Assembly: GCA_025455685.1 (NCBI GenBank)
Contig: JALOMB010000008.1
Coordinates: forward strand, 1 to 37,980
Reading direction: 5' to 3'
DNA: 37,980 nucleotides
Source of the DNA: Chitinophagales bacterium
GTDB lineage: Bacteria > Bacteroidota > Bacteroidia > Chitinophagales > JADJOU01
Part shown: positions 26,411 to 31,976 of the stretch, in pieces
How the letters are laid out: each line of letters opens with the position of its first letter
Position numbering within the stretch: the first letter of the stretch is position 1
The notes under the pieces: generated by a model
The model's database searches: none
Seen by the model: only the letters and a program-made list of their open reading frames with translations
What the model was told of the DNA's origin: nothing
Translations under genes and position numbers: made by a program

Positions 26411-27367
26411 ATGACCCCATTGCACCAATTGTTAAAGATATACATCCAAAGGTTATCTATGCAAATCAAACAAGCAAAAACATATCCTCAACCTGGTTTG
26501 TGGTTACATTCCAATAATTCCCGTACTTTATTATTTCGATTGGAAGGTTTGCTTCGTATTTCAAAAGAAATTTATCCTAATGAAGATATAGTCTGGTATC
26601 ATACTCAAGTAAAAGAGTTAGAGGATATTCTAGGAAAAGCAGATTACTATATTTCGGATTATTTACATTTTCAAGAACAGAAAAATTTTCCGGTAAAAAT
26701 CCTCGATTATTGGCATAGACAGGCACATGACGCTTTACATCATAACATGAATTGGAATTTAGACCTTTTATTAGAATACAGTGAAAATTTACTAAAGAAA
26801 TTGCCAAAAATTATTTCGTTGAAGCCCAAAAAAGAAATTTCAAAAATCCAATCTTTTATTCAGGACGAAATTCAAAAAACGCAAAAATTCTTATTAAACA
26901 TTCAATACCAAGACATTGAGCTAGAAATTCATGAAGCTAGACGGAAGCTACGTTGGTTTAGCATATATTTTCATGCGCTTTCTGGATTGATTTGTGTACA
27001 GAAAAGTGCAGCCAAACCCACGAAACTACTTCAAACATATCAAACGCCTAAAATCATCAATAGCCCATTTAATCAAACAGAAGATTTAATAAAAACCGAC
27101 AAGCAGATAATTTTTGATTTAGATCATTTCTATGCTTTGAACTGGATAATCTTCACCTTAGGAGGCATTAAAGACCAAGTGCTCTTGGGCCGTTCTTTAT
27201 TTCAAGGATATCAATTTTTACATTTTTCATCGAATCAAGATACTTTGAAAATGATTAAATCCAAACATTTATCTGATTTTCATGATGAACAGAGCAGCCT
27301 GATAGAAGCTAAAAAAGTCTTAAAAGACTATGTGAATTTAGGACTTTTATCGTCTTTAATTAAATAA
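26411..27367 (+). CDS. hypothetical alpha-helical protein, possible divergent CHAD-like domain
   Basis: Two helical halves: WLHSNNSRTLLFRLEGLL...VKELEDILGKADYYISDY and EIHEARRKLRWFSIYFHAL...HLSDFHDEQSSLIEA. They resemble the HxxR/RR and LGxxRD positions of CHAD. Confidence 0.4.
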   Translation: MTPLHQLLKIYIQRLSMQIKQAKTYPQPGLWLHSNNSRTLLFRLEGLLRISKEIYPNEDIVWYHTQVKELEDILGKADYYISDYLHFQEQKNFPVKILDYWHRQAHDALHHNMNWNLDLLLEYSENLLKKLPKIISLKPKKEISKIQSFIQDEIQKTQKFLLNIQYQDIELEIHEARRKLRWFSIYFHALSGLICVQKSAAKPTKLLQTYQTPKIINSPFNQTEDLIKTDKQIIFDLDHFYALNWIIFTLGGIKDQVLLGRSLFQGYQFLHFSSNQDTLKMIKSKHLSDFHDEQSSLIEAKKVLKDYVNLGLLSSLIK

Positions 27368-29122
27368 AGCTTTGCCAAATGGCAACTCGAATCTACCTGT
27401 ATTTAGATATTTAGTTAAATTAAAATTGAGTGTTTTATACCTTATGACTAGAAGAATACCATAATACAGCACCGTTAAGGGGAAAAACCAACTAAAGATT
27501 AATCCCAAAAAAAGACCTCCTAGTACGATGAGCTCGAAGTTTAAAATTTGTTTGACACTATTTTTTTCCAATTCATTCATAGAATTTTCATATCGAATAA
27601 GATAATATATAGGAGCTAATATGAACAAACCATAGGTCATAGCAATAATTTTAATCAGTTCATTATTTCTTTGGTGGCCTTCGTTAAGTGTACTTTTGGG
27701 TTCGTTAATCTTTTTGGATTTATCGAAATCAGCTTGTTTACTAGTTTCTTGGCTTAGTGCTGATGAGGGTTGAAGTTTTGAGATGTCTAGACCTGCAAAA
27801 TTTCCACTAGACATCATGAGTAAAACAGTGTTGTCAACGAAGTTTTCTTCGATATAATTCTTTAGGTCGCCTAGATTTGTAATCAGTTTGAGATTTGCAT
27901 GATTAAAAAATGCCTTTACCTCTACTTCAGTATATATTTTCCCGCCTTTTGCTTGTAGGACTTGTGTGTCTAAAAAAACTACCGGTGCTTTAATTGCAGC
28001 GAGTGTATCTCGATACATAGGCAGAAAATCTTCTTTGAGAGAACTAAATGTATGAAGTTCATAGATGGCCAGGATATTCTGATTAGCAAATTTTTCTGAT
28101 GCGGCATTAATTGTGGCTCTGAGCTTGCTCGGAGAATGAGCAAAATCTCGAATAATCTCAGAACTTTCAAATTTATTGACTTGCTCAAGTCTTCGTTTAG
28201 CCCCTTGAAAATCTGATATCGCTTGATAAAAATCCTGTTTCGACATCCCGAGCTCGAGACAAATTTGTTTTGCGGCCTCAATATTAGCCATATTGTGTTG
28301 ACCAAATACCGATACACGATGTTTTCCTTCGTCCTTGATATAATAGATTCCGTCTTCAATGTCATAGAATTGATGTATATAGGGTGTTAATATTATATCA
28401 TTTCTATCTGAGGATAGGATATCTGCTAGCCCTTCAGAGTTGTGAAAAAATACTTGCGCCTTATTTTCCAAGGATTGAATAAACAATTTAAATTGTTCTT
28501 GATATTGCGCCAAAGTTGGAAATACATTGATGTGGTCCCATTCAATTCCGCTAATGACAGCAAGATTTCCTTTGTAATAAAGAAATTTTGGTCTCATATC
28601 CAGACATGACGAGAGATACTCATCGGCTTCTAAAATGATAATAGGGGCTTGAGAAATTTGAACACTTTTTTCGAATCCTGCTACACGAGCGCCTACCAAA
28701 TAGTCGAAATCAAAGTTTGCTCGCTTCAACACATGCATAATCATCGAGGTAATAGTAGTTTTACCGTGACTTCCAGCTACAAGAATTCTCTTTTTGTTTT
28801 TGGATAATTCATAAATAAATTCAGGGAAACTTATCACTTTGAGACCTAACTCCATGGCTTTGGTAAGTTCTGGGTTTTCGAGTTTGGCATGCATACCAAG
28901 TATGATTACATCTAAATCAGCGTGAATGTATTCAGAAAAAAACCCGAGTTTTTCTGGCAAAAGCCCATGATTGCCAAGATTAGATCGACTTGGCTCTTCT
29001 ATGATATCATCAGAGCCTGTGATGTGATGTCCAAGCTGTTTCATTGAAATTGCGAGTTGATGCATTATTGCACCTCCTATAGCTATGAAATGAATGTTCT
29101 TAGGTGTATCAAAAATTTGCAT
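27356..29122 (-). CDS. mpl: UDP-N-acetylmuramate:L-alanyl-gamma-D-glutamyl-meso-diaminopimelate ligase (Mpl) with C-terminal DUF4870-like TM extension
   Basis: IHFIAIGGAIMHQLAISMKQLGHHITGSDD, GSHGKTTITSM, EADEYLSSCLD, EWDHINVFPTL, MMSSGNFAGLD; then a linker and two or three TM helices ending YLNTGRFELPFG. Confidence 0.92.
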   Translation of the reverse strand: MQIFDTPKNIHFIAIGGAIMHQLAISMKQLGHHITGSDDIIEEPSRSNLGNHGLLPEKLGFFSEYIHADLDVIILGMHAKLENPELTKAMELGLKVISFPEFIYELSKNKKRILVAGSHGKTTITSMIMHVLKRANFDFDYLVGARVAGFEKSVQISQAPIIILEADEYLSSCLDMRPKFLYYKGNLAVISGIEWDHINVFPTLAQYQEQFKLFIQSLENKAQVFFHNSEGLADILSSDRNDIILTPYIHQFYDIEDGIYYIKDEGKHRVSVFGQHNMANIEAAKQICLELGMSKQDFYQAISDFQGAKRRLEQVNKFESSEIIRDFAHSPSKLRATINAASEKFANQNILAIYELHTFSSLKEDFLPMYRDTLAAIKAPVVFLDTQVLQAKGGKIYTEVEVKAFFNHANLKLITNLGDLKNYIEENFVDNTVLLMMSSGNFAGLDISKLQPSSALSQETSKQADFDKSKKINEPKSTLNEGHQRNNELIKIIAMTYGLFILAPIYYLIRYENSMNELEKNSVKQILNFELIVLGGLFLGLIFSWFFPLTVLYYGILLVIRYKTLNFNLTKYLNTGRFELPFGKALFN

Positions 29123-29127
29123 AATAA

Positions 29128-29472
29128 TTATTTAAGGAATTTGATCCAATGAAAAAATGGTCTTTGGTTTAAATATTCTATATCATCCTGAAAATGATAG
29201 GCCTCTCGCTCAAAAGGAATGCTCATATAGGCATTAAATCTATCATATCCCTTGATTCTATAATAAAAATAAAAGACAAGATACAAGAGGTAAAATCCAA
29301 TTAATAAGAGTTCTAGCTGTTGACGAAAATGTATGGTTTCATGACATAAAAGACTAGGGCTCATGTCTTGACTTTTTTCACGAGATAAAATAAACGGAAA
29401 AAGCGCCATGGCAGAGGTTTGTCTTCCAGCTATCAAAGTTAGAAAATTAGGACAGTGTATAATGAATTTCAT
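29128..29472 (-). CDS. small membrane protein with HEXXH motif (putative metallopeptidase-like)
   Basis: LLCHETIHFRQQLELLLIGFYLLYLVFYF...IPFEREAYHFQDD: HETIH, one TM helix and a downstream FEREAY possible third ligand. Confidence 0.6.
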   Translation of the reverse strand: MKFIIHCPNFLTLIAGRQTSAMALFPFILSREKSQDMSPSLLCHETIHFRQQLELLLIGFYLLYLVFYFYYRIKGYDRFNAYMSIPFEREAYHFQDDIEYLNQRPFFHWIKFLK

Positions 29473-29831
29473 GTAAACATACTTAAAAAATCAGAGATGT
29501 GGCCGTATCCTAGTAAATTCAATAAAGTTTGTCTGTTTTTTGGTAGTTCATTGGTGTGAATATGTTTAGCAACCTTGTCTTGGAATGATATAATGAAATC
29601 TCGGGTAGTCATGTAATAGACCTCTTTTCCCATATAATTTTCTGCTATATTTATCAATTGGTCTAAATGGGCGGAGTTAAGCAAGAATTCTTCTAAAATA
29701 GGTAGTTTCTTGTCAAAAAACATTTTTTTTGCCAATTCTTTGACTTGTTTTGTAAGCTTAAGCGTATCATTTCGGTCAATTTTATTATCAAAAACCGATA
29801 AAATCAATTCTTCAAGCGCATTATTACTCAT
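29469..29831 (-). CDS. hypothetical protein
   Basis: Start trimmed to MSNNALEEL (29831), 5 bp after the upstream gene's stop. 4-bp overlap with the downstream gene. Confidence 0.6.
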   Translation of the reverse strand: MSNNALEELILSVFDNKIDRNDTLKLTKQVKELAKKMFFDKKLPILEEFLLNSAHLDQLINIAENYMGKEVYYMTTRDFIISFQDKVAKHIHTNELPKNRQTLLNLLGYGHISDFLSMFT

Positions 29832-29835
29832 ACAT

Positions 29836-30489
29836 TTATGAAAAAAAATTCGGTTTGAAATATAAAAATACACTGAGCATTTGACCTATGAAACCAGAGC
29901 AAACACCAGCAATAGCCTCTTTCTGCGTGTGCCTTCCGAGATAAATCCTGCTCGCTCCTACCAAACCTACCAATAATAGCAAAAGGGCTACAATAGGCAT
30001 GAGGTTTTTGGACGTAAACTGACCAATAAATATGAAAAATGACGCAATCGAAGCTATTGAGGTAGTGTGCGCAGAGATTTTGATAAAATTATTGACAAAA
30101 AAACATATTCCAATAGATAAAGTTGCGCCAAGAAGTGCCGTAGCGAAATAAGGTTCTTCTATAAATATGAGTGAGGCTTGCGCTTTTGGTTTGACTAATA
30201 AAAAACTCATTAGATAAAAGAAAAAGAAGAACAGATAAGGGAGAATTCTTTGTTTTTGCTCTGATATATCTAAATCGGAAATTAAATTAAGTTTTCTAAA
30301 TATGAATATTATCAAGGCAGGAAAGAGGGTAGTCATGAGAAATAATACGATCAAGGTAATTTTGAGCATTTTATTGGGTAAACTAAAATAATAATACGGA
30401 AACAAAGCTACTAAAAGCAATAAAAAAAAGACGTTTACCGATATTGGATGAAATACTGCCGATATGAGTCTGGCGATGAAATAGCTCAT
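29836..30489 (-). CDS. PAP2-like (phosphatidic acid phosphatase / undecaprenyl-diphosphatase type) membrane protein
   Basis: Multi-TM; SAHT and SRIYLGRHTQKE resemble the PAP2 C2 (SGH) and C3 (SRx5Hx3D) motifs, with substitutions. Confidence 0.7.
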   Translation of the reverse strand: MSYFIARLISAVFHPISVNVFFLLLLVALFPYYYFSLPNKMLKITLIVLFLMTTLFPALIIFIFRKLNLISDLDISEQKQRILPYLFFFFFYLMSFLLVKPKAQASLIFIEEPYFATALLGATLSIGICFFVNNFIKISAHTTSIASIASFFIFIGQFTSKNLMPIVALLLLLVGLVGASRIYLGRHTQKEAIAGVCSGFIGQMLSVFLYFKPNFFS

Positions 30490-31976
30490 TTGGTTAATTG
30501 TTTTCTTTGGAATCTAGGAAGTATATTGAGTTGATCTCTGTATTTAGCTACGGTACGTCTAGCAATTATCGCACCATTTTTTTTGAGTAAATCCACGAGC
30601 TCTTCATCTGAATAAGGAGCAGTTTTATCTTCGTTTTCTACGATTTCTTTGAGCAAATTTTTAATATGTGTTGTGGATATTTCTACACCTTTATCGTTTT
30701 CAATTTTTTCACTAAAGAAAAATTTCAAAGGAAATACGCCTACCTCTGTCCATACATATTTTAAATTGGTAATTCTTGAGATCGTAGAAATATTGAAGGA
30801 AGTTGCTTCAGAAATATTTTTTAGAGTCATCGGTTTTAGGTCAGATTCCTGAAGGGTAAGAAAGAATTTTTTCTGGTATTTTAGAATAGAGTTCATAATG
30901 ATAATCATGGACTCATGACGTTGTTTAATAGAAGTAATGAAAAGCTGTGCAGCGTTTACTTTGTTTTTTACGAATTCCAAGGCGCTTGCATTTTCTTTGC
31001 TCTCTTTTCTTTTTTCTCTTAAACTCATGAGCATTTGAGTAAACTCGTCACTAATCCTCAAAGTAGGCATGTTATATTGGTGTAACTCTAGTCTGAGTTT
31101 ATTTCCATCACGATAAACGAAGAAATCAGGAATAATGATATAGTTGAACTCATTATTGCTATTGATATTGATCGGTTTAGGGTTCAAAGAAGATATGACA
31201 GATATTATTTTGCTAAAAGCTTCGTTAGATATTTTAAGTTTCTGAGCAATTTTAGCATAATCACGCTTTGTAAATAAATCAAAATATTTGTCTATAACCT
31301 CATAAGCCATAACATTTTCTTTGGAGTAAACTTTGGTATCGAGCTGAATGAGCAAACACTCTTGGATACTTTGGCTTCCAATTCCAGGAGGCTCTAAAGT
31401 TTTAATCATATCTAGGACGTCTTTGATTTCAGGAATTGAGACTTTTAAATTTTGCCTAAAGGCCAAATCATCACTGATTTTTTGAAGATCTCGCCTCAGA
31501 AGTCCGTCTTCATCTAAATTTCCAATGATAAATTCTGCTATAGCGGTTTGTTTTTCGGTTAGATAAAGTTCGCTGACTTGTTTGGTCAGCATTTCGAAAT
31601 CGGTTTTAATTTGTGTTAAACCAAAGTTTGTTCCATTTTCATCATCGTCGTGATCATAATTAGATTGATAAACCTTGTCAATTATATTATGAAACTCATC
31701 GAAGTTTTCATTGGATAAGGTATCATTTTCATGGGACATATAATGATCTTCGGATGAATGATCTTCTGATTCAGGTTGAATATTAGAGGTGTCATTAGAT
31801 AAATTAATAGAGACATTATCAATGCTGTTGTCGATTTCAAGCGCAGGATTTGCGAGGAGTTCTTCTTGTATTTTTTGGTCTATTTGAAGAGAATTGAGCT
31901 CCATCATCTTGTACAAAGCAAGAAGTTGCTGAGAGATTTTGAGTTTTTGTTTTTGTTCTAATCCCTGTTTTAGCAT
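30486..31976 (-). CDS. rpoN: RNA polymerase sigma-54 factor
   Basis: N-terminal Q-rich activator-binding region, NPALE, C-terminal RpoN box ARRTVAKYR. Confidence 0.96.
   Translation of the reverse strand: MLKQGLEQKQKLKISQQLLALYKMMELNSLQIDQKIQEELLANPALEIDNSIDNVSINLSNDTSNIQPESEDHSSEDHYMSHENDTLSNENFDEFHNIIDKVYQSNYDHDDDENGTNFGLTQIKTDFEMLTKQVSELYLTEKQTAIAEFIIGNLDEDGLLRRDLQKISDDLAFRQNLKVSIPEIKDVLDMIKTLEPPGIGSQSIQECLLIQLDTKVYSKENVMAYEVIDKYFDLFTKRDYAKIAQKLKISNEAFSKIISVISSLNPKPININSNNEFNYIIIPDFFVYRDGNKLRLELHQYNMPTLRISDEFTQMLMSLREKRKESKENASALEFVKNKVNAAQLFITSIKQRHESMIIIMNSILKYQKKFFLTLQESDLKPMTLKNISEATSFNISTISRITNLKYVWTEVGVFPLKFFFSEKIENDKGVEISTTHIKNLLKEIVENEDKTAPYSDEELVDLLKKNGAIIARRTVAKYRDQLNILPRFQRKQLTK

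Follow-up and report, generated by a model that had tools for sequence, protein, structure and literature searches.

Mur ligases and Mpl are regarded as soluble cytoplasmic enzymes that come into contact with the membrane machinery via partners such as MurG. In the DNA studied here, a stretch of 37,980 nucleotides from a Chitinophagales bacterium (contig JALOMB010000008.1, hereafter the window), the gene of an Mpl-type ligase continues in frame into a hydrophobic tail. We consider it rather probable that this tail, a three-helix domain resembling HOTT/DUF4870 and gained once, anchors the recycling ligase at the inner membrane.

Features described for Mpl are a Tyr unique to this enzyme, a loop of the type (S/T)AFFDKRSK and the peptide-site residues EPRSNT and SNG in the C domain (PMC3060825). 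The domain to which the tail can be compared, DUF4870, has been renamed HOTT (homologs of Tic Twenty) and is described as a re-entrant-like helix followed by a charged loop and two more membrane helices; apart from the MamF-like proteins, which take part in protein targeting to magnetosomes, it is otherwise uncharacterised (PMC11628618). For Bordetella, it has been proposed that the membrane-associated MurG acts as a scaffold of the cytoplasmic Mur steps (PMC6420597). A covalent anchor would solve the same problem in another way. No fusion of this kind was found in the open-literature titles and abstracts on DUF4870, HOTT/MamF, Bacteroidota Mpl and anchored Mur ligases, subscription papers lying outside this search.

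A fusion conserved within one family

Positions 27356-29122 of the window hold one stop-free open reading frame (ORF) of 588 amino acids, which the first-pass annotation had pointed out and which lies on the minus strand (ATG at 29122); the plus-strand translation of the same positions contains many stops. The complete Mpl-type ligase ending in MMSSGNFAGLD and the in-frame tail following via a polar linker, both described there, were found as well, the tail comprising 142 amino acids (residues 447-588). The ligase part is composed of an N domain binding UDP-N-acetylmuramic acid (UDP-MurNAc), an ATP-binding middle domain with the motif GSHGKT and a C domain ending at residue 446. The Pfam families Mur_ligase (9-110) and Mur_ligase_M (115-284) match above their cut-offs and Mur_ligase_C (310-440) just below.

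Behind the polar linker the tail contains hydrophobic segments whose Kyte-Doolittle means over 19 residues peak at 1.67 for residues 489-509 and at 2.25 for about 522-565. The order of its elements is a helix (about 488-511), the charged loop RYENSMNELEKNSVKQ, NFE at positions 528-530, two more helices (about 526-542 and 547-573) and LPFG near the end. AlphaFold2, supplied with a 31-sequence alignment, returned a confident Mur fold, a disordered linker and helices at 480-514, 517-542 and 547-573. The predicted local distance difference test (pLDDT) amounts to about 53-85 per block of ten residues in the helix region and falls to 44 per block in the linker, with values below 50 at 470-479. Thereby, the transmembrane prediction proposed in the first-pass annotation yielded hydrophobic segments and three helices, for which the membrane location is a predicted one.

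The GTDB family was sampled with six genomes, i.e. the window genome and G001 to G005. Five of them carry the in-frame fusion (the window genome, G001, G003, G004 and G005), and according to public records four of these five are metagenome-assembled genomes (MAGs) from different assemblies. In the sixth, G002, the ligase stops at 449 amino acids and the neighbouring gene starts only about 106 bases further on, indicating that the tail DNA is gone. Between genera, the tails share 17-29% identity and the ligases only 51-54%; the positions NF and LP.G are invariant across the tails, and hydrophobic segments were found in all five tailed members. In the closest pair (G001 and G004), the membrane domain had a ratio of non-synonymous to synonymous substitution rates (dN/dS) of 0.078/0.635, about 0.12; the ligase had 0.030/0.271 and the linker 0.272/0.766. 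As the ratio of the tail is as low as that of the ligase, the tail evolves as a constrained domain and the linker more freely; by this codon-based measure the tail is under purifying selection.

A survey of Mpl proteins in Bacteroidota, suggested with the original annotation, found the extension, among the loci read, only in this one GTDB family. An Mpl-type ligase occurs in 339 of 395 Bacteroidia genomes (E<=1e-60) and, among the matches listed, ends near residue 450. Eighty loci gave 62 homologous ORFs, 57 of which end 13-22 residues past the SSG motif; four carry a tail of 155-159 residues past it and one is cut by the contig end. A profile of the tail recovered the five fusions from 399 genomes of the order, the weaker matches inspected being unrelated membrane or other proteins. 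Among the ligase matches across the class, a few seemed to extend to residue 544 (f78); there the frame reads on by chance into the N-terminal part of a downstream gene that contains a single membrane segment. All fused sequences fall into one clade of the tree, in which the tailless G002 is nested beside G003 (89/86 within a 99/99 group), and one gain at or before the family ancestor together with one loss in G002 is the simplest history. A split-gene ancestor, i.e. a DUF4870 gene beside an unfused ligase, was not seen; in G025, both genes are located on one contig over the cut-off, about 26 kb apart.

A different fusion was observed in another family of the same order (G032, L216:1597-3780), where in a stop-free frame of 728 amino acids an Mpl-type ligase is followed by an RNase_T (DnaQ-like) exonuclease whose C-terminal motif is ExoX-like (Pfam scores 83.9 and 38.1 bits). 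It was found in one MAG only and could be a frame error.

Identity of the ligase

In a tree including E. coli Mpl, MurC and MurD, the Bacteroidota ligases group with E. coli Mpl (support 96/91), and the family's own MurC proteins group with E. coli MurC, apart from the fused ligase. Like the Mpl proteins of E. coli and Psychrobacter arcticus (PDB 3HN7; TIGR01081), the fused enzyme is a three-domain Mur ligase with a GKT loop, an EADEY..S...D.R.K loop, RR before the C domain and the FAH motif. The Mpl-type loop reads EADEYLSSCLDMRPK in the window and is only partly identical to (S/T)AFFDKRSK; its residues Y169, S172 and K179 do not vary among 31 Bacteroidota sequences. In place of the peptide-site residues EPRSNT and SNG, the window ligase contains ELHTFS and SSG, and it furthermore differs from E. 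coli Mpl by the membrane tail. The tailless Mpl-type ligases of other Bacteroidota represent the same enzyme without the tail, being 42-50% identical over residues about 8-451. Taken from the tree and the Mpl-type loop, which support the identity given in the first-pass annotation even though the NCBIfam cut-offs were missed, the enzyme is likely a tripeptide ligase.

It is unlikely that the enzyme is a MurC-like or another Mur ligase, in which case the anchor would serve de novo precursor synthesis and not recycling. Its score with murC (TIGR01082, 221.7 bits, cut-off 335.1) is higher than that with mpl (TIGR01081, 176.8 bits), neither being over the cut-off, and MurC structures ranked first in the Foldseek search, in which Mpl structures were also matched. 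Fold and motifs for ATP and UDP-MurNAc are in common with MurC, as are the H and S of ELHTFS with the MurC motif HRYS. However, a separate MurC is encoded in the window genome (C20) and, in full length, in the relatives. The fused ligase is placed with Mpl in a clade separate from MurC, and it possesses the Mpl-type Tyr, the DxRxK loop and FAH but not the two arginines of the MurC motif HRxxR.

Likeness of the tail to HOTT domains

With about 100 amino acids arranged as a helix, a charged loop, NF[QE] and two helices with an uncharged turn between them, the tail follows the layout of DUF4870/HOTT (PF09685), which includes the MamF-like proteins and is distantly homologous to Tic20; helix 1 is a candidate for the re-entrant-like element. 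Segments bearing K/R lie on both sides of helix 1 and behind helix 3. In all five tails the turn that joins helices 2 and 3 is uncharged, and this pattern suggests that the charged loop and the C-terminus are cytoplasmic.

DUF4870 was matched by two of the five tails, with the best E-value of any Pfam family (0.0011), and no other sequence of the G004 genome matches DUF4870 better than its tail. The family TM7S3_TM198 scored slightly above DUF4870 for the window tail, but was rejected as only one of the five members matches it. Alignment of the five tails with the DUF4870 alignment by hhalign gave a score of 31.2 (probability 62%) with the charged loop and NF[QE] in register; reversed and RodA decoys reached at most 15.4, and the scores of 340 single membrane segments did not exceed 21.0. 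In 396 Bacteroidota genomes, the tail profile produced three non-self matches at E<=1e-3. These were an ABC permease (G613), a stretch broken by stops and, at E 5.8e-4, a genuine DUF4870 protein (122.9 bits). The DUF4870 resemblance reported in the first-pass annotation, weak for single sequences, held for spacing and layout and is favoured by the profile-profile match; it did not hold at the Pfam cut-off, which was missed in every sequence tested. Because of this we term the tail HOTT-like, as a putative distant relative, and do not file it as a DUF4870 member.

The tail also differs by its position C-terminal on a Mur ligase, the DUF4870 proteins read here being free-standing or located behind an XRE DNA-binding domain. 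DUF4870 ORFs of about 600 amino acids in three genomes (G718, G628, G620) were considered as Mur ligase fusions and rejected. These Bacteroidota genes (L124, L125, L126) combine XRE, DUF4870/HOTT and a serine hydrolase (beta-lactamase-like), and possibly encode a membrane-bound one-component regulator or enzyme.

Alternatively, the tail might be a working HOTT module, e.g. a factor for membrane protein targeting or assembly as proposed for the MamF-like proteins and Tic20, so that the fusion would couple two functions and the ligase would not be positioned for catalysis. We regard this as improbable. It would fit the layout of the tail and the protein targeting to magnetosomes by MamF-like HOTT proteins (PMC11628618). 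No other DUF4870 match above the cut-off was detected in the window genome or its five relatives, so that the tail may be the only HOTT-like domain of the family. On the other hand, DUF4870 proteins above the cut-off occur in only 93 of the 396 Bacteroidota genomes, which argues that their function is not generally needed. Furthermore, the loss of the tail in G002 speaks against an autonomous HOTT module, and the tail is too diverged for a functional claim at motif level.

Gene neighbourhood and possible function

As a membrane-anchored enzyme, the Mpl-type ligase would join recovered cell-wall peptide to UDP-MurNAc in an ATP-dependent reaction. The HOTT/DUF4870-like domain, probably fused to it a single time, in the family's common ancestor or earlier, would most likely reside in the inner membrane, its charged loop and both ends facing the cytoplasm. 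Via the flexible linker of 40-50 residues, the ligase would be kept at the cytoplasmic face, close to the membrane steps using its product (MraY, MurG, RodA/PBP2) or to peptide uptake. The membrane tether postulated by the first-pass annotation thereby agrees with the hydrophobic three-helix character of the tail, its membrane location being predicted only. The sequences themselves establish the fusion, the constraint on the tail and its single loss; insertion into the membrane, topology, peptide substrate and a benefit from tethering are inferred from them.

Several results weigh against this proposal. The window tail scored 16.1 bits with DUF4870 (E 0.012, cut-off 25) and the whole protein 11.9 bits, and no member reaches the gathering score, the best being G004 with 19.4 bits. 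A tail-only AlphaFold2 model was weak (predicted template-modelling score 0.37) and found no PDB match with Foldseek. On the side of the ligase, the curated mpl cut-off of 388.7 bits was missed as well as that of murC, and E. coli Mpl is located on a long branch of the tree. G002 lives without the tail, indicating that tethering is not essential. Finally, the ligase has other gene neighbours in the window genome than in the sister genus.

In G001, G002 and G004, the ligase gene converges on a SET-domain gene, behind which rodA and a PBP2-like gene follow; in G005 it likewise converges on the SET gene and rodA. The window genome has rodA and the SET gene together on another contig, without the ligase, and therefore the neighbourhood lends weak support to a connection with the elongation machinery. 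The SET-domain protein is small (about 126 amino acids), and its gene directly adjoins rodA in the family (L130, L129, L127, L131, L228), including the window genome.

The features of the locus are compiled in Table 1. Due to the overlap with the convergent gene, the last tail codons are coding on both strands. The upstream HETIH protein resembles a minimal membrane metallopeptidase.

Table 1. Position of the fused gene, its parts and the adjacent genes in the window.
Feature	Position	Strand	Basis or remark
Fused ORF, 588 amino acids: Mpl/MurC-type Mur ligase, linker and C-terminal membrane domain	27356..29122	-	
Mur ligase part, residues ~8-446	27785..29101	-	Pfam; Foldseek matches among MurC and Mpl structures; grouped with E. 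coli Mpl in the tree
Polar linker with little conservation, residues 447-487	27662..27784	-	low AlphaFold2 pLDDT; linker dN/dS
HOTT/DUF4870-like membrane domain (predicted), residues 488-588	27359..27661	-	hydropathy, AlphaFold2, profile comparison
rpoN (sigma-54)	30486..31976	-	PF04552, PF04963, PF00309; first of a close-packed same-strand run ending with the fused ligase
PAP2-superfamily membrane phosphatase	29836..30489	-	PF01569, 32.3 bits, above cut-off; upstream of the ligase
Upstream gene, 134 amino acids, no family	29469..29873	-	
Upstream gene, 114 amino acids, HETIH motif and hydrophobic stretch	29128..29472	-	no Pfam/NCBIfam match above cut-off
Convergent gene, 318 amino acids, no confident family	26411..27367	+	12-base overlap with the 3' end of the fused ligase

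No protein of the AmpG family (TIGR00901) was found in any of the six family genomes, the E. coli and Bacteroides controls being positive, and the proximity to muropeptide import suggested in the first-pass annotation could not be upheld in this form. An Mpl-type ligase is present in all six genomes and the S66 (LD-carboxypeptidase) family in five. In other lineages without AmpG, muropeptides are imported by ABC transporters (PMC9790009), so that recycling would still be possible.

We judge it quite improbable that the tail is a nearly neutral accretion, i.e. a functionless membrane segment that was tolerated once the ligase had lost its stop codon. The absence of the tail from G002 with its close neighbouring gene, the low tail identity between genera and the lack of a conserved operon would be in line with such an origin. 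It is weakened by the dN/dS of the tail, similar to that of the ligase, by the retention of an in-frame hydrophobic domain where the ligase itself has diverged to little more than half identity, and by the invariant NF and LP.G positions. The chance of an artefact joining two genes through a missed stop or an error of sequencing or binning is negligible: although all genomes concerned are draft MAGs, the same junction recurs under selection in five MAGs from different assemblies and the window ORF is stop-free, so that conservation of the fusion excludes the frame error named at the outset as a possible refutation.

For the anchored recycling ligase, a tentative extension is that the family has made the soluble Mpl step membrane-bound by a HOTT-type anchor, recycled peptides being joined beside MraY/MurG/RodA or a non-AmpG importer in a kind of substrate channelling. 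If true, channelling in cell-wall recycling would be due to a domain class that elsewhere has been linked to protein targeting. The fusion supplies an enzyme partner for the HOTT/DUF4870 domain. A covalent anchor on one ligase, together with its loss in a close relative, would offer a natural experiment on the importance of location in cell-wall recycling.
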